A stretch of DNA of 64,000 nt, taken from Actinomyces procaprae. Lineage in GTDB: Bacteria; Actinomycetota; Actinomycetes; Actinomycetales; Actinomycetaceae. The position numbers were made by a program, and so were the translations under genes. The notes beneath the pieces were generated by a model that saw nothing but the letters and a program-made list of their open reading frames with translations, did not search any database and had not been told where the DNA came from. The DNA is taken from NCBI RefSeq assembly GCF_004798665.1, contig NZ_CP039292.1, forward strand, positions 930,001-994,000, given 5' to 3'. This document shows positions 5,536 through 51,162 of the stretch, in pieces (position 1 is the stretch's first letter; every line of letters starts with the position of its first letter).

Positions 5536-6413
5536 CCGCTGCCCCCATGCCTCCGGGGCCGTTCCGGCCCGACGGCGGTGGCGTAGGCCCCAGCCCTGAC
5601 GACGCCGCGGGCCCGAGCGCATCCGCCGACCATAGTGCCGCCGTCGGCCCGGTAGCCCCAGCGGGAGCGGCCGCGGGTGGACTGGTGCCCGCCCGGGCCG
5701 CCGACGTCGTTCCCGCCGCGCCGGCCCGGCCCGCCCCGCAGCGGCCCTGGACCGGGCAGGACTTCGTGTGGTGGAACACCGCCGGCGTGCTCACCGCACT
5801 GCGGGCGGGACGCCGCCCCAACCCCGTCTCCCCGGTGGTGGATCCCATTCGCGCTGCCTTCTCCGGTGAGGAGGTCATGCTGGCCACCTGCGATGCGGAG
5901 ATGCTGGTGTGGCGGCGTGGCGACGCCACCTACAACCCCTCCCGGGGCTTCTTCCTGGCCGGCGGGCCGGTGGGACTGGCGCTGACCGCCGCCTTCTTCG
6001 GCGGGCAGGCCTACCTGAATTCCCGGCGCAAGCGGGCCGCCGAGGCCGACGCTGTGGAGAAGTGGCGGCACCTGGCCTACGCCCGGCTGACGGTGTCCAC
6101 CCATGGCATCTACCTGGGCACGGGGGAGGGCGTCATGCCGATCGCCTTCGCCGACGTGCAGGAGGTGCAGCTCACCGGCGTGGGTGAGGTGGTGATGGCG
6201 GCGGCCAACGCCTCCGGCTCGGCGCGGTGGAAGCTGCGCGGTCAGTGGGCGGAGCTGGTGCTGGTGATGTGGGCGGCCCGGTACCTGCCCGGACACCCCC
6301 AGCTGGTGGGGCGCACCTGGCTGCCCGCCGACTGGTTCGCGCACGCCGCCGCCTGGGGCTACGCCGTCGACACCTCCAACTGGCCCCGCTATCAGCCGTG
6401 CGCCCTGGACTGA
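5532..6413 (+). CDS. Conserved-looking protein of unknown function, one hydrophobic segment
   Basis: I do not recognise the family. The 293-aa protein starts with about 75 Pro/Ala/Gly-rich, probably disordered residues. A folded region then contains one hydrophobic stretch (GGPVGLALTAAFFGGQAYL), an Arg/Lys-rich segment (SRRKRAAEAD) and a beta-rich C-terminal domain with several tryptophans. Translation is coupled to the phosphatase gene by ATGA, so the two are probably co-transcribed. Its last 80 bp, encoding the residues up to YQPCALD, are duplicated at 6778-6857. A role in membrane or lipid handling would be a guess. Confidence 0.75.
   Translation: MTAAPMPPGPFRPDGGGVGPSPDDAAGPSASADHSAAVGPVAPAGAAAGGLVPARAADVVPAAPARPAPQRPWTGQDFVWWNTAGVLTALRAGRRPNPVSPVVDPIRAAFSGEEVMLATCDAEMLVWRRGDATYNPSRGFFLAGGPVGLALTAAFFGGQAYLNSRRKRAAEADAVEKWRHLAYARLTVSTHGIYLGTGEGVMPIAFADVQEVQLTGVGEVVMAAANASGSARWKLRGQWAELVLVMWAARYLPGHPQLVGRTWLPADWFAHAAAWGYAVDTSNWPRYQPCALD
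6334..6413 (+). repeat. 80-bp direct repeat, copy 1 (3' end of the preceding gene)
   Basis: This copy is the functional 3' end of the gene at 5532-6413, including its TGA. It matches 6778-6857 over 80 bp with one C/T difference (TATCAG versus TACCAG). Near identity over a coding segment argues for a recent duplication rather than convergence. Confidence 0.95.
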
Positions 6414-6646
6414 GCCAGGCTAGGTGTGGGATCATGACAGGGAGCCGAGCGGCGGCAACCGCCCGACTCCCCGGGAAACCGGGTGTCGCTCAGTGTCCTA
6501 AGACACTGAGAAGAGCTGTCAGGGCCCAGATAAATGGCGGAGTCGTTTGGATGGACTACGGTCCGCCAAATCTGGGCCCTTTGCTCACCCGTCATCCCCT
6601 TCCGCTTCTGTGCCTTGCGGCGGTGCTTCCGCTTCTTGGATGACAT
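6392..6646 (-). CDS. Small basic protein with a near-perfect ribosome binding site
   Basis: The reading frame encodes 84 residues beginning MSSKKRKHRRKAQKRKG, an extremely Lys/Arg-rich N-terminus. Bases 6655-6665 read TAAGGAGGTGA on the minus strand, an 11-nt match to the 16S anti-Shine-Dalgarno, 8 nt before the ATG; this is the main reason to believe it is translated. The remainder is not obviously conserved, is encoded through two hairpins, and ends antisense to the 3' end of the upstream gene. The basic N-terminus recalls tiny ribosome-associated proteins, but I cannot assign it to a family. The true product may be shorter. Confidence 0.5.
   Translation of the reverse strand: MSSKKRKHRRKAQKRKGMTGEQRAQIWRTVVHPNDSAIYLGPDSSSQCLRTLSDTRFPGESGGCRRSAPCHDPTPSLAQSRAHG
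6491..6580. other. Two hairpins inside the 364-bp insert
   Basis: A 7-bp perfect hairpin with a 4-nt loop lies at 6491-6508 (CAGTGTC, CTAA, GACACTG). A larger one pairs 6521-6541 with 6562-6580 (AGGGCCCAGAT...GGCGGA against TCCGCC...ATCTGGGCCCT), broken by a 2-nt bulge and closed by a 20-nt loop. Both lie between the two 80-bp repeats and could be RNA structures, terminators or remnants of an element. There is no T-tract. Confidence 0.6.
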
Positions 6647-45586: not shown

Positions 45587-46906
45587 ATGACCGACTCCGC
45601 GGCCACCGCCCGCACCGCCCTCAACAACCAGCCCCTGGCCGACCTCGACCCGGAGATCGCCAAGGTCCTCGACGACGAGCTTGCTCGCCAGCGCGGCACC
45701 CTGGAGATGATCGCCTCGGAGAACTTCGTGCCGCGCGCCGTCCTCCAGGCACAGGGGAGCGTGCTGACCAACAAGTACGCCGAGGGCTACCCCGGGCGCC
45801 GCTACTACGGCGGCTGCGAGGTGGTCGACGTCGCCGAATCCCTGGCCATCGAACGCGCCAAGACCGTCTTCAACGCCGAGTGGGCCAACGTCCAGCCGCA
45901 CTCCGGCGCCCAGGCCAACGCCGCCGTCCTGCACGCCCTGGCCAACGGCGGCGACACCATCCTCGGCCTGTCGCTCGCCCACGGCGGTCACCTCACGCAC
46001 GGCATGAAGATCAACTTCTCCGGCAAGAACTACCACGCCACCGCCTACGGCGTGGATGAGACCACGCACCGCATCGAGATGGAGCAGGTGCGCCAGGCCG
46101 CCCTGCGCGAGCGCCCCCGCGTGATCATCGCCGGCTGGTCCGCCTACCCCCGACACCTGGACTTCGAGGCCTTCCGCTCCATCGCCGACGAGGTCGGTGC
46201 CGCCCTGTGGACCGACATGGCCCACTTCGCCGGGCTGGTCGCCGCCGACCTGCACCCCTCCCCGCTGCCGTGGTCCGACGTCGTGTCCACCACCGTCCAC
46301 AAGACCCTCGGCGGCCCCCGCTCCGGCATGCTGCTGACCAACCGCGCCGAGCAGTGGGGCAAGAAGCTCAACTCCGCCGTCTTCCCCGGTCAGCAGGGCG
46401 GCCCGCTTATGCACGTGATCGCCGCCAAGGCCGTCGCCATGAAGATCGCCGGCACCGACGAGTTCAAGGACCGGCAGGCCCGCACCCTCCAGGGCGCCTC
46501 CATCCTCGCCCAGCGCCTGCTCGCCGACGACGTCGCCGCCGCCGGCATCAAGCTGGTCACCGGCGGCACCGACGTCCACCTGGTGCTGGTGGACCTGCGT
46601 GACTCCGCCCTGGACGGCCAGCAGGCGGAGGACCTGCTGCACGACGCCGGCATCACCGTCAACCGCAACGCCGTCCCCTTCGACCCGCGCCCGCCGCGCG
46701 TCACCTCCGGCCTGCGCATCGGTACCCCGGCTCTGGCCACCCGCGGCTTTGGGGCCGCCGAGTTCACCGAGGTCGCCGAGATCATCGCAACCGCCCTGGC
46801 GGCTGGTGCGGCCGGCAACGCCGACGACCACCTGCTCGCCTCCCTGCGCGGACGCGTGCAGGCGCTCACCGACGCCTTCCCGCTCTACCCGGGGCTGGCC
46901 CAGTGA
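45587..46906 (+). CDS. glyA: Serine hydroxymethyltransferase
   Basis: GlyA converts serine and THF to glycine and 5,10-methylene-THF using PLP. The 439-aa protein has the family features [41 protein letters not shown] and the PLP lysine in [19 protein letters not shown] lies 4-5 nt before the ATG at 45587, which fixes the start inside a longer open frame. Expression is probably controlled by the ZTP riboswitch upstream. It overlaps folD by 4 bp (GTGA), so both enzymes of the methylene-THF step are co-translated. Confidence 0.97.
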
Positions 46907-47808
46907 GGGCCCCCTGGGAGGGCGCCGCCCGAGTCCTGGACGGTAAGGCCACCGCAGCGGCGCTCAAGGCCGAACTGGCCCAGCGCGTGGCCGTGCTGCG
47001 TGAGCGCGGCATCACCCCGGGTCTGGGCACGGTGCTGGTCGGAGAGGACCCCGGCAGCGTCAAGTACGTGGCCGGCAAGCACGCCGACTGCGCCGAGGTG
47101 GGCATCGAGTCCATCCGCGTGGACCTTCCCGCCACAGCCACGCAGGCCGAGATCGAGACGGCCATCGACCGTCTCAACGCCGACCCCGCCTGCACCGGCT
47201 ACATCGTCCAGCTGCCGCTGCCCGCCGGCATCGACACCAACGCCATCCTGGAACGCGTCGCCCCCGACAAGGACGCCGACGGCCTGCACCCCACGAACCT
47301 CGGCCGCCTGGTGCTGCGCGGCACCGGTCCGATCACCTCGCCGCTGCCGTGCACGCCGCGCGCCTGCATCGAGCTGATCACCCGCCACGGCATCGACCTG
47401 GCCGGCAAGAACGTGTGCGTCGTCGGCCGTGGCGTCACCGTGGGCCGCTCCATCGGCCTGCTGCTGATGCGCAAGGATGTCAACGCCACCGTGGACGTCT
47501 GCCACACCGGCACCCGCGACCTGGCCGCGCATGTGCGCCGCGCCGACGTCGTCATCGCCGCCGCCGGCTCGGCCGGCATCGTCACGGCCGACATGGTCGC
47601 GCCCGGGGCGGTAGTCCTGGACGTGGGTGTCTCCCGCGTCGTCAACCCGGAGACCGGCAAGGGGCGGATCATGGGCGACGTCGCCGACGGCGTCGACCAG
47701 GTCGCCGCCTGGCTGTCCCCGAACCCGGGGGGAGTCGGCCCGATGACGCGCGCCCTACTGCTGGCCAACGTCGTCGAGATCGCCGAACGCAACGCAGCCG
47801 ACTCATAG
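46903..47808 (+). CDS. folD: Methylenetetrahydrofolate dehydrogenase/cyclohydrolase
   Basis: FolD oxidises 5,10-methylene-THF to 10-formyl-THF through methenyl-THF, using NADP. The 301-aa protein starts with GTG overlapping glyA. It shows the catalytic region [17 protein letters not shown] (Tyr and Lys), [12 protein letters not shown], the [13 protein letters not shown] stretch and the Rossmann motif [19 protein letters not shown]-terminal [13 protein letters not shown] closes the family signature. It supplies formyl-THF for purine synthesis, which fits control by a ZMP/ZTP sensor. Confidence 0.97.
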
Positions 47809-47910
47809 GCGCTGGGCCCTGGAGCAGCGGTTCTGGGCTGCGTCACCTGGTTGTGGCTCCCGCTGTGACACGTCTCGGATGAGCTAGGCGCGCTTCACGG
47901 GGCTATCCGG

Positions 47911-48045
47911 CTGACGGTTCGTACCTTTGCCTCGACGCTTCGTACTTCGGCCTGACGGTTCGTACCCGTAGGTGCCGAACCGTCGTAAGCAGGTACGAAT
48001 CGTCGACCAGAAGGTACGAACCGTCGGCCTTGGTGCCGAACCGTC
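47911..48045. repeat. Phased palindromic repeat element, copy 1
   Basis: This 135-bp intergenic element contains seven copies of a 13-bp word. Three are forward (GACGGTTCGTACC class, starting 47913, 47934, 47954) and four inverted (GGTACGAACCGTC class, ending 47984, 48004, 48025, 48045). Neighbouring sites are 20-21 bp apart, two helical turns. The halves can also pair into a long stem. It matches 49408-49542 at 132 of 135 positions. The rest of 47809-48275 shows no gene beyond alternative starts of the DUF559-type gene. Confidence 0.92.
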
Positions 48046-48275
48046 GTCGGGCTGCATGGCCCGGGAATATAGGCGGCGCACGGCGTACCGGCCCACCGAC
48101 GTCCACAGGTGTGGTTGGTGCGCCCCTCATTCAAAAACTTGTGAACGGTCAGATGCGGCACGGCGCCGACATCCTCCATGCTGTAGCCATGACCGGTCAT
48201 GTCTCCTCTGTGCTCCCAGCTGTCGTATCCACCGCCGGATGTCTTGGCACCGTTCCTGAAACTGCCGTACCCATC

Positions 48276-49259
48276 ATGCGTGGACAGATTCTCCTGCCGC
48301 AGGCCTCCGCCAGGCACTGGGACCAAAAACGCGAAGTGACCCTGGCCAGGGCCGTCGCCGCGCTGCGTGCCGGCGCCGGTACGATCGCCATCGCATACGA
48401 GGCCGCAGTACTCATTCACGGGGGATCACTGCGCAGATTCGAGCCCGATGTTGATGTCCTGCTGTCGTATAGGCCACGTGTGTCCGCCACCGCGCTTCCG
48501 CAGGTGATCTACGGTGGAAGACTTGCGCGGCGGGTCCCCAGGGGCGAGCGTATCCCGCTGGAACGTGCGGAACGGTTGGGGCGACGGGTGCGACTACGCC
48601 GTCACTACCGCGAAGACCTCCGCGAGCACGACATTGTCACCATCAACGGGGTGCCGGTGACTTCGCTCGCCCGTACGTTGACCGATTGTCTGCTCGACCT
48701 ACCTCCCGCAGATGCGCTGGTGGCAGGCGACTCGCTGCTACGAGTCCACTGCCGCCCAGACCGTTGGCGCAGTCGAGACACCAACGCGCTGTGGCAGGAG
48801 CTGGTTGCCGACGTCGAAGGGCGGCTCAGTTCTTACCGCCACCGCAACGGGCGGGTACGCGCACAGAGTTTGCTCAAGCTGCTGTCCCCCTGGGCGGAGT
48901 CTCCGGGCGAAAGCGAGCTGCGCAGAATTCTCCTGGGGGCCGGCTTTCCAATGCCGGACCTTCAGCACCGGGTAGTCGCTGAGAACAATGAGTACTTCCT
49001 GGATCTGGCCTGGCCGGAGATCATGCTCGACGTCGAGTTTGACGGCGCCCTGAAGTATGCGGGAGATGACGTAGTGTTCCAGGAGGGAATCCGGCAGGAC
49101 CGGCTCAAGCGCAGCGGCTGGAGGGTCGTGCGGTTCAAGACGCCGGCACTGCGAGAACCAGACCGTATTGTCCGCGAGGTGCTTGATGCCTCTCCTGAGG
49201 GAAGAACGTGGGTGTTGCGGCCGCGGGCCTGGATGAACGCGATGAGCCCGTTGCCGTGA
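48276..49259 (+). CDS. AbiEi-like/DUF559-type protein with Vsr-like nuclease fold
   Basis: This protein (327 aa from the ATG at 48276) has an N-terminal region typical of actinobacterial AbiEi-antitoxin-like proteins: a stretch like AVAALRAGAGTIAIAYEAAVLIHG, then DVDVLLSYRPR, then INGVPVTSLARTLTDCLLDL. The C-terminal domain has the DUF559/Vsr endonuclease-like pattern: GESELRRILLGAGFPMPDLQ, YFLDLAWPEIMLDVEFDG and RLKRSGWRVVRFK. No toxin partner is adjacent. In-frame starts at 48141, 48153 and 48189 are possible; none has a ribosome site. It is flanked on both sides by the 135-bp phased repeat. Confidence 0.75.
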   Translation: MRGQILLPQASARHWDQKREVTLARAVAALRAGAGTIAIAYEAAVLIHGGSLRRFEPDVDVLLSYRPRVSATALPQVIYGGRLARRVPRGERIPLERAERLGRRVRLRRHYREDLREHDIVTINGVPVTSLARTLTDCLLDLPPADALVAGDSLLRVHCRPDRWRSRDTNALWQELVADVEGRLSSYRHRNGRVRAQSLLKLLSPWAESPGESELRRILLGAGFPMPDLQHRVVAENNEYFLDLAWPEIMLDVEFDGALKYAGDDVVFQEGIRQDRLKRSGWRVVRFKTPALREPDRIVREVLDASPEGRTWVLRPRAWMNAMSPLP

Positions 49260-49407
49260 GTCGCACCCGTCTGCGGCGAGGGCGTTACGCCTCGGCGAGA
49301 TTGCTTTGCGTGACGTCAGCAAGGCGATCGGCGGGCCCGGGTTCTTATGGGTGCCTGTTTTGAGGTGTTGGCTGTGCCGTGAGTCGACGGTCAACATCCG
49401 TGCGAGT

Positions 49408-49542
49408 CTGACGGTTCGTACCTTTGCCTCGACGCTTCGTACTTCGGCCTGGCGGTTCGTACCCGTAGGTGCCGAACCGTCGTAAGCAGGTACGAATCGT
49501 CGACCAGAAGGTACGAACCGTCGGCCTTGGTGCCGAATTGTC
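49408..49542. repeat. Phased palindromic repeat element, copy 2
   Basis: This is the same 135-bp element and orientation as 47911-48045, offset by 1497 bp, with three substitutions (one in the third forward site, two in the last inverted site, now GAATTGTC). It lies between the convergent ends of the DUF559-type gene and xthA; the rest of 49260-49568 shows no gene. Confidence 0.92.
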
Positions 49543-49568
49543 GCCTGGGCTGGCAGCGACGAACCGCC

Positions 49569-50453
49569 TCAGAGGTCGTAGTCGACCACCAGTGGAGCGT
49601 GATCGGACCAGCGCTCGGCGTAGCTGGCGGCCCGGTCCACGGTGAAGGCACGGGCGCGCTCCGCCAGGATTGGCGTAGCCACCTGGTAGTCGATGCGCCA
49701 GCCGGCGTCGTTGTCGAACGCCTTACCGCGCTGGGACCACCAGGTGTAGGGGCCCTGCGCATCGGGCGCAAGGCTGCGTGCCACATCCACCCAGCCGGCG
49801 CCGAACCAGCGCTCCAGATACGCGATCTCCTCATCCAGTACGCCGGCTGACTTGTTGTGGTTGGGGCGCCAGTTCTTGATGTCCCGCTCGGAGCGGACAA
49901 TGTTGAGGTCACCGGCCATGAGCACCTGCGGCCCGCCTGCCTCGGCGGCCGCCAGCAGTGATGCCATCCGGAGATCCACCAGGTCGAGGTGGGCGTACTT
50001 CTGGTCCATCTTGATGGTGCCCACCTGGCCGGAGTGGAAGTAGGCGGACACCACGGTCAGGGCTGTCTGCCTAGTCGTCGGCACAGTGACAGTCGGATCG
50101 GCGCCGGCCGGACCGGGGCCGGCCGTCCCGGTGCTAGTCAGCAGGTCGACTTCGAGCCAGCGGCCGGAGTCCACATCCGGCTCCTCGCTTCCGGGCGCGC
50201 TGACACCTCGCCGCGCCGCGCCCACCTCAACCGGGGCGCCCTCACGCACCGCGACGGCGACGCCGGCCCGTCCCTTGACCCGACAGGGCCAGATCACCGA
50301 CTCGTACCCCGGCAGGAGCGCGGCCGCAGTGGTCTCATCCGCGCGCACCTCCTGCAGCAAGAGCACGTCGGGGGCGCAGGCCTCCAGCCAGGAGGCCATC
50401 TGCTTGCGGGCGGCGGCACGAATGCCGTTTACGTTGACGGTGGCTACGCGCAT
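49569..50453 (-). CDS. xthA: Exodeoxyribonuclease III / AP endonuclease
   Basis: XthA repairs abasic sites and degrades DNA 3' ends. The 294-aa protein has the endonuclease/exonuclease/phosphatase fold motifs RVATVNVNGIRAA (Asn), LLLQEVRADE (metal-binding Glu), MAGDLNIVRSERDIKNW (Asp/Asn), WRIDYQVATP and the catalytic WSDHAPLVVDY. An Ala/Gly/Pro-rich insertion of about 20 residues near 110-125 is unusual. It starts at the ATG at 50453 and is convergent with the DUF559-type gene. Confidence 0.95.
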   Translation of the reverse strand: MRVATVNVNGIRAAARKQMASWLEACAPDVLLLQEVRADETTAAALLPGYESVIWPCRVKGRAGVAVAVREGAPVEVGAARRGVSAPGSEEPDVDSGRWLEVDLLTSTGTAGPGPAGADPTVTVPTTRQTALTVVSAYFHSGQVGTIKMDQKYAHLDLVDLRMASLLAAAEAGGPQVLMAGDLNIVRSERDIKNWRPNHNKSAGVLDEEIAYLERWFGAGWVDVARSLAPDAQGPYTWWSQRGKAFDNDAGWRIDYQVATPILAERARAFTVDRAASYAERWSDHAPLVVDYDL

Positions 50454-50648
50454 GGGGACCGAGTGTACGTGTGAGCCCGCCCGGCCACGAGCCCCGAGTA
50501 GGTCAGCCGGTCGCTGGATTCGGCAGCGCCGCGCGTACTGACCGCGGCGTGTGATTCGCGGCGGTCGCGGCGCAGCGCCGGGGAGGGTCTGCTGGCGGGA
50601 CCCGTGATGCCCCTGTCAGATGCTGTGTTTTCCTGCGACAATGGCTGC

Positions 50649-51032: not shown

Positions 51033-51056
51033 CATCCCACGACCTTGGGGCGCACC

Positions 51057-51099
51057 GCACGACCCCGGGGTGGTCGTGGAACACACCCCGGGGTCGTGC
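51057..51099. terminator. Bidirectional hairpin terminator
   Basis: GCACGACCCCGGGGTG (51057-51072) pairs perfectly over 16 bp with CACCCCGGGGTCGTGC (51084-51099) around an 11-nt loop. It lies between the convergent ends of acyP and the MacB permease gene. Confidence 0.82.
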
Positions 51100-51162
51100 A
51101 ACTTACAGGCAGCCGGTGGGAGGTACGCGGCCCGGCAGGCCTGGTGCGGCTGGACGCCGCGC

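Follow-up and report, generated by a model that had tools for sequence, protein, structure and literature searches.

The closest described counterparts of the locus considered here are the REPtrons, in which a single-copy gene (RAYT, or TnpA-REP) lies beside copies of its cognate dispersed repeat; a genome may hold several such systems, each with a repeat class of its own (PMC3116915, PMC8266576). AbiEi antitoxins, for their part, recognize inverted repeats of 23 bp in their promoters (PMC7319586), and in Caulobacter cells without a cytosine methyltransferase an SOS response is due to a DUF559 Vsr-like protein (PMC12907096). We have analyzed a stretch of 64,000 nucleotides of Actinomyces procaprae (assembly GCF_004798665.1, contig NZ_CP039292.1, positions 930,001 to 994,000; hereafter the window), in which two nearly identical arrays of short sites, A and B, bracket a gene for an AbiEi/DUF559-type nuclease. 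We consider it probable, at about 0.6, that the nuclease has its cognate DNA sites in the two arrays that bracket its gene, and that gene and arrays form a gene-plus-repeat system. Gene and arrays are strongly associated, and binding of the arrays by the protein is likely; the idea that the protein also spreads them is a guess. It has fair rivals, chief among them an autoregulated protein with operators that travel in miniature inverted-repeat transposable elements (MITEs). The main point, which goes beyond the original observation, is the tendency of this nuclease family as a class to be repeat-bracketed: many related nuclease genes have repeats of their own on both sides, which suggests a little-noticed partnership between gene and repeat. 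At the level of sequence, the bracketing, the dispersal of the arrays, their rigid spacing, their co-occurrence with the gene and the different words found at paralogues can all be read directly.

Like a REPtron gene, the window gene and two paralogues each adjoin copies of their own dispersed repeat class. The enzyme, however, is not an HUH (Y1) transposase but a Vsr-like nuclease with an AbiEi-like region, and whereas REPs comprise single or paired palindromes that carry a GTAG motif, the window family consists of phased multi-site arrays without hairpin covariation. With the AbiE type IV toxin–antitoxin systems the protein probably shares the AbiEi-like region, and AbiEi proteins also bind inverted repeats near their gene (PMC7319586), but here this region is fused to a nuclease domain, the gene is the only one between the arrays, and the repeats lie on both sides and are dispersed as well. 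The nuclease domain has the fold of the Vsr-like homing endonuclease I-Bth0305I; in contrast to the latter, the window gene is repeat-bracketed between two intact genes, with no intron or intein host gene. A literature search found no earlier account of DUF559/AbiEi nucleases with such repeats, although subscription papers and preprints lay outside that search and an earlier description is possible. We give even odds to the broader proposal that these loci represent a second, independently evolved REPtron-like class, built on AbiEi/Vsr-like nucleases and widespread in the actinobacterial order, in which each gene has its own word and period, a genome may hold several systems, and the nuclease copies and homogenizes the phased arrays.

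Each window array (Table 1) consists of three forward sites followed by four inverted ones, with steps of 21 and 20 bp in the forward arm and of 20, 21 and 20 bp in the inverted arm, as a sequence-only reading of this DNA had described, except that the seventh site of B (49530-49542) is decayed and falls outside matches with up to three mismatches. The same reading was right that the copies differ at three positions (130 of 133 are equal), that they start 1497 bp apart and that an AbiEi/DUF559-type gene lies between them. In coordinates of the 8-bp core (ACGNTTCG) the orientation switch is 21 bp, so that the 20/21-bp rhythm continues across the array centre. Seven core sites fall within 140 bp, as against a maximum of three in 200 Markov-1 shuffles of the window, and three other genomes have an array at this site that aligns with A. 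The proposal that all sites face one side of the helix holds as regards rigid spacing, with a reservation as regards strict one-sidedness: the mean site period is about 20.5 bp and not 21, at 10.5 bp per turn the sites would shift around the helix by about 100 degrees from one end of array A to the other, and they would lie strictly on one face only if the DNA had about 10.2 bp per turn.

The window pair are two members of a genome-wide family. Searching the A. procaprae genome (3.6 Mb, a single contig) with array A gave 74 matches, many of them both strands of one place (40 of 47 candidates scored); 33 arrays were read in detail, and a strict pattern adds at least one more (3036700), for a total of at least 34. 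The number of units varies among them, but not the rhythm: 142 of the 143 same-strand steps of up to 65 bp between exact core sites at the retrieved loci of this genome are 20 or 21 bp or a multiple thereof (the remaining one is 11 bp), and all 32 orientation switches counted run from forward to inverted, at 21 bp in eight cases and at 41 bp in 24. Random spacing of the genome-wide copies, which the sequence-only reading had named beforehand as speaking against it, was thus looked for and not found. That reading had also offered a choice between a multi-site binding array and a structured mobile repeat; the rigid spacing supports the former, with binding itself likely, and the dispersal and carriage by MITEs support the latter. 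At L063, L083 and L065, where the array lies in a MITE, one arm is expanded by tandem 20-bp units, so that unit number is free while the rhythm is kept. The array was unmatched in plasmid and phage records, the window had no Rfam match, and a pattern scan of viral contigs gave four matches, all of direct repeats only. Among 80 of at least 120 stretches from genome contigs, arrays with both orientations were found only in Actinomyces (succiniciruminis, glycerinitolerans, ruminicola and ruminis), the other organisms having one orientation only; 40 further stretches, whose source organism was left unread, include more two-orientation arrays.

Gene and arrays occur together. Among 49 congeneric genomes the strict array pattern is present in seven and a close orthologue of the nuclease gene (74-100% identity) in six, all of them among the seven; in 6/6, including G005 (74% identity), the gene is bracketed by two arrays at the same site between folD and exo, an exonuclease III-like gene. 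A looser search of 59 relatives added a single 27-bp match, in G022. The seventh array-bearing genome, G064, keeps the order glyA, folD, exo but lacks the nuclease gene; it has a solo array (L331, G064:C1:799500-812500, at about 6360-6500) that joins the left flank of A to the right flank of B, much like a solo long terminal repeat, as expected from recombination between A and B with deletion of the gene. In a tree of exo from 30 genomes, G064 stands beside G066 and G014 (support 0.87), inside the array clade (1.00), and its site is best read as a case of gene loss. The outgroup G025 has folD and exo as close neighbours, with neither array nor gene. Within most of the genomes the alignments also indicate a close likeness of the two flanking arrays: they are equal at 117 of 120 positions in G005 (whose array A agrees with the window's at only 77 of 140), at 96.8% over 126 bp in G012 and, as the best local match, at 96.6% over 116 bp in G014 and, with masked bases adjacent, at 98.9% over 92 bp in G066; arrays at the same place in different species agree at 88-95%. 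The outer flanking sequences of A and B remain different although the arrays themselves are alike, which suggests gene conversion.

Related nucleases have repeats of their own. In the same genome, TGCACGACC recurs at about 20 bp beside the paralogue at 1886.7 kb, with 6 + 6 sites on its two sides, and TGGACCGCT at 19 bp beside the paralogue at 388.8 kb, with 9 + 9 sites; the words of the paralogue arrays include TTGCACGACC and TTGGACCGCT. The array of the former gene is found at 23 places in this genome (40 of 50 candidates scored), one of them inside the window, and that of the latter at at least 40 (40 of 84 candidates scored); together with the window family they make three such systems in one 3.6-Mb genome. 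Many copies of the paralogue arrays have outer flanks in common, so that these arrays also ride in larger repeats. The palindrome of a homologue from another family of the order (L388, G043) has five near-full places, two of which are the flanking pair.

A shared phased word with at least four sites per side was found at 14 of 29 genus loci and 2 of 28 order loci (from other families of the order), and at none of 23 controls or 82 shuffles; the genus set includes L299, which is irregular and may be due to chance, and the order count was originally 3/30, before L404 (a false hit) and L410, which lie at contig edges with overlapping flanks, were removed. With spacing ignored and at least five sites per side, a shared word was present at 11/29 genus loci, 4/13 further loci (one being the same gene as a genus locus) and 0/23 controls, the best of which had four irregular sites. 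Any repeat common to both flanks (E ≤1e-4; L404, L410 and the short L296 omitted) was detected at 23/28 genus loci, 20/28 order loci and 3/23 controls. These flank-shared repeats are direct in 22 of the 23 genus cases, and direct in six and inverted in 14 of the order cases; 19/23, 10/20 and 1/3, respectively, are self-complementary beyond shuffles, although the result for L275, which holds masked bases, means little. The genus loci are not independent, as they include five window-gene orthologues and several mutual near-orthologues; the controls are of one gene type (exo) and from genus genomes only; and at the order loci the match often covers only part of the gene, so that a few repeats may lie inside coding sequence. 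In a Mantel test on 14 loci that were selected because they have arrays, the more alike two proteins are, the more alike their words tend to be (rho 0.28, a value reached in 88 of 5000 permutations; with G005 left out, rho 0.29 and 131 of 5000). At four loci of other families (L400, L412, L414 and L416) the flanks carry direct repeats with a step of 31-33 bp, or about three turns, mutually inverted across the gene; L390, L414 and L416 have the word GTGATCATGCA in common.

If the nuclease acts on its own repeats, then REP-RAYT would be no one-off, an unrelated fold having reached the same arrangement, and one more lineage would be available for testing why bacteria keep single-copy nucleases with dispersed repeats. 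Proteins currently labelled AbiEi or DUF559 would gain a possible function as well, and the flanks of each gene would supply a candidate DNA site for its product. The arrays moreover offer a natural model of binding arrays phased at two helical turns.

The AbiEi-like region of the protein was indicated by PADLOC, and Pfam gave DUF559 and MTES_1575, and no transposase family; the nuclease domain is positively of Vsr-like fold, and nothing was found in NCBIfam or by a PDB sequence search. Four orthologues align over the same start, and the gene is under purifying selection. In the gene-plus-repeat system envisaged here, the AbiEi-like part would bind to adjacent double-stranded units, beginning at the central switch and proceeding outward. 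Such binding is plausible because AbiEi proteins bind inverted repeats, and it may also control the nuclease's own gene. The Vsr/homing-endonuclease-like domain would then nick or cut the array DNA, a step made plausible by the DUF559 Vsr-like protein that triggers the SOS response in Caulobacter. Repair of the cut array from another copy would homogenize and spread the arrays, with MITE ends as a further vehicle for some. Some qualifications apply. The G063 pair is an exception, with only 90.8% agreement, and in G014 the within-pair margin is small; the array clade is one lineage, which means few independent events; and the correlation between word and protein could arise from shared descent alone.

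Could the arrays be operators that have turned into litter? On this account an AbiEi-like repressor would act on A and B, the copies carried by MITEs would be decoys or control sites of other genes, and the nuclease would play no part in their spread. Array A indeed ends 143 bp upstream of the start codon, and the promoters of AbiEi and Rv2827c contain inverted repeats to which these proteins themselves bind (PMC7319586). As to carriage, one repeated ISL3-like MITE with ends like GGCTCTTCCGG contains 16 of the 33 arrays that were read, and both ends were found for 13 of the 16. ISL3 elements have such ends and 8-bp target duplications; duplications of the MITE's target are exact at L075 and L077 and match at 7/8 positions at L051 and L071, and were not seen at several other MITE copies examined. 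A second element, whose ends are related to those of the first, holds four more arrays (L052, L058, L066 and L079). We nevertheless regard the operator account as unlikely, if worth serious attention: in 6/6 genomes the downstream array is no less constant than the upstream one, the nuclease-domain residues are invariant in 15 homologues, and in the A. procaprae genome 13 of 30 array sites are convergent as against three divergent, by a rough gene-calling procedure that overlooked the DUF559 gene and hence scored both A and B as convergent. Nor are MITEs and ISL3-family insertion sequences a full description of the arrays, of which about half of those read lie in MITEs, since arrays of one kind are found in different MITEs and some arrays lack such ends. 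The latter include the window pair: no match to the family I MITE end (at least 15 of 23 bases) was found within 900 bp of A or B, and by this measure the window element has no ISL3-type terminal inverted repeats around it. For this reason, and because all six orthologues are bracketed, and paralogues and distant homologues are bracketed by other repeats, it is hardly credible that the arrays are MITE debris that happens to flank a gene.

The arrays might instead work as folded RNA or DNA, that is, as terminators, cruciforms or REP-like structures. RNA fold z-scores are between -4.5 and -10.7 in 9/9 arrays folded, and long near-perfect palindromes occur among the flanking repeats in other genera (L388, L389 and L408). 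Single arrays fold well, however, because inverted copies of one word are complementary anyway. Covariation was analyzed on 37 representatives (112 called arrays, of which 13 were dropped and 99 kept, with 91 distinct sequences in 37 clusters): the pairing of mirrored columns does not exceed what their composition predicts (core +0.003, outer four bases +0.001, spacer +0.03), some second-from-centre columns pair above expectation, by up to +0.21, and in the central F4/R1 sites three of the four outer base pairs fall below it, to -0.31. Hairpin and terminator readings of the window family, without covariation at mirror positions, are therefore unsupported and very improbable. Double-stranded sites suit this family better than a folded strand, and a rhythm that is constant while spacers vary fits proteins on double-stranded DNA, without being proof of them. 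The joining of an AbiEi-like region (PADLOC) to a Vsr-like nuclease domain would also agree with a role in defence, in which the nuclease attacks foreign DNA and the chromosomal arrays hold, count or protect it. But the immediate neighbours are folD and the exonuclease III-like gene (the rest of the window was unscreened for defence genes), and G064 retains arrays without the gene; we find self-marking of this kind improbable, though somewhat less so than the hairpins.

Table 1. Positions in the window of the arrays, the nuclease gene and its neighbours
Feature	Position	Strand	Description
Array A	47913..48045	.	Seven 13-bp sites; three forward, then four inverted
Array A, starts of 13-mer sites	+ 47913, 47934, 47954; - 47972, 47992, 48013, 48033		
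Array B	49410..49542	.	Direct repeat of A; seventh site decayed
Array B, starts of 13-mer sites	+ 49410, 49431, 49451; - 49469, 49489, 49510		
Nuclease gene	48189..49259	+	356 aa; AbiEi/NTase-like region and Vsr-like (DUF559/MTES_1575) nuclease domain
Codons of D272, E283, D285 and K289 of the nuclease domain	49002..49055	+	Residues invariant in 15 aligned homologues
folD, left neighbour	46903..47808	+	Pfam; same place in 7/7 array-bearing genomes
Exonuclease III-like gene (exo), right neighbour	49569..50453	-	Pfam Exo_endo_phos; same place in 7/7 array-bearing genomes
Four-site array of the 1886.7-kb system	51035..51101	.	Two F and two R sites; word TTGCACGACC, 20-bp step

With folD and exo as the immediate neighbours, no AbiEii (DUF1814) toxin gene is adjacent to the nuclease gene. 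In a comparison of window 46900-50500 with A. ruminicola (L304, G063), the synonymous divergence (dS) of the nuclease gene is 0.04, far below the 0.29 of the neighbouring folD, which points to recent exchange of the locus. The gene copy of G012 (L260, 4509-5575) is split by a frameshift, and in this low-completeness assembly error and decay are indistinguishable. In G005 (L303) the left array overlaps the folD stop codon, at which it starts, and the right flank is unlike that of the other species.
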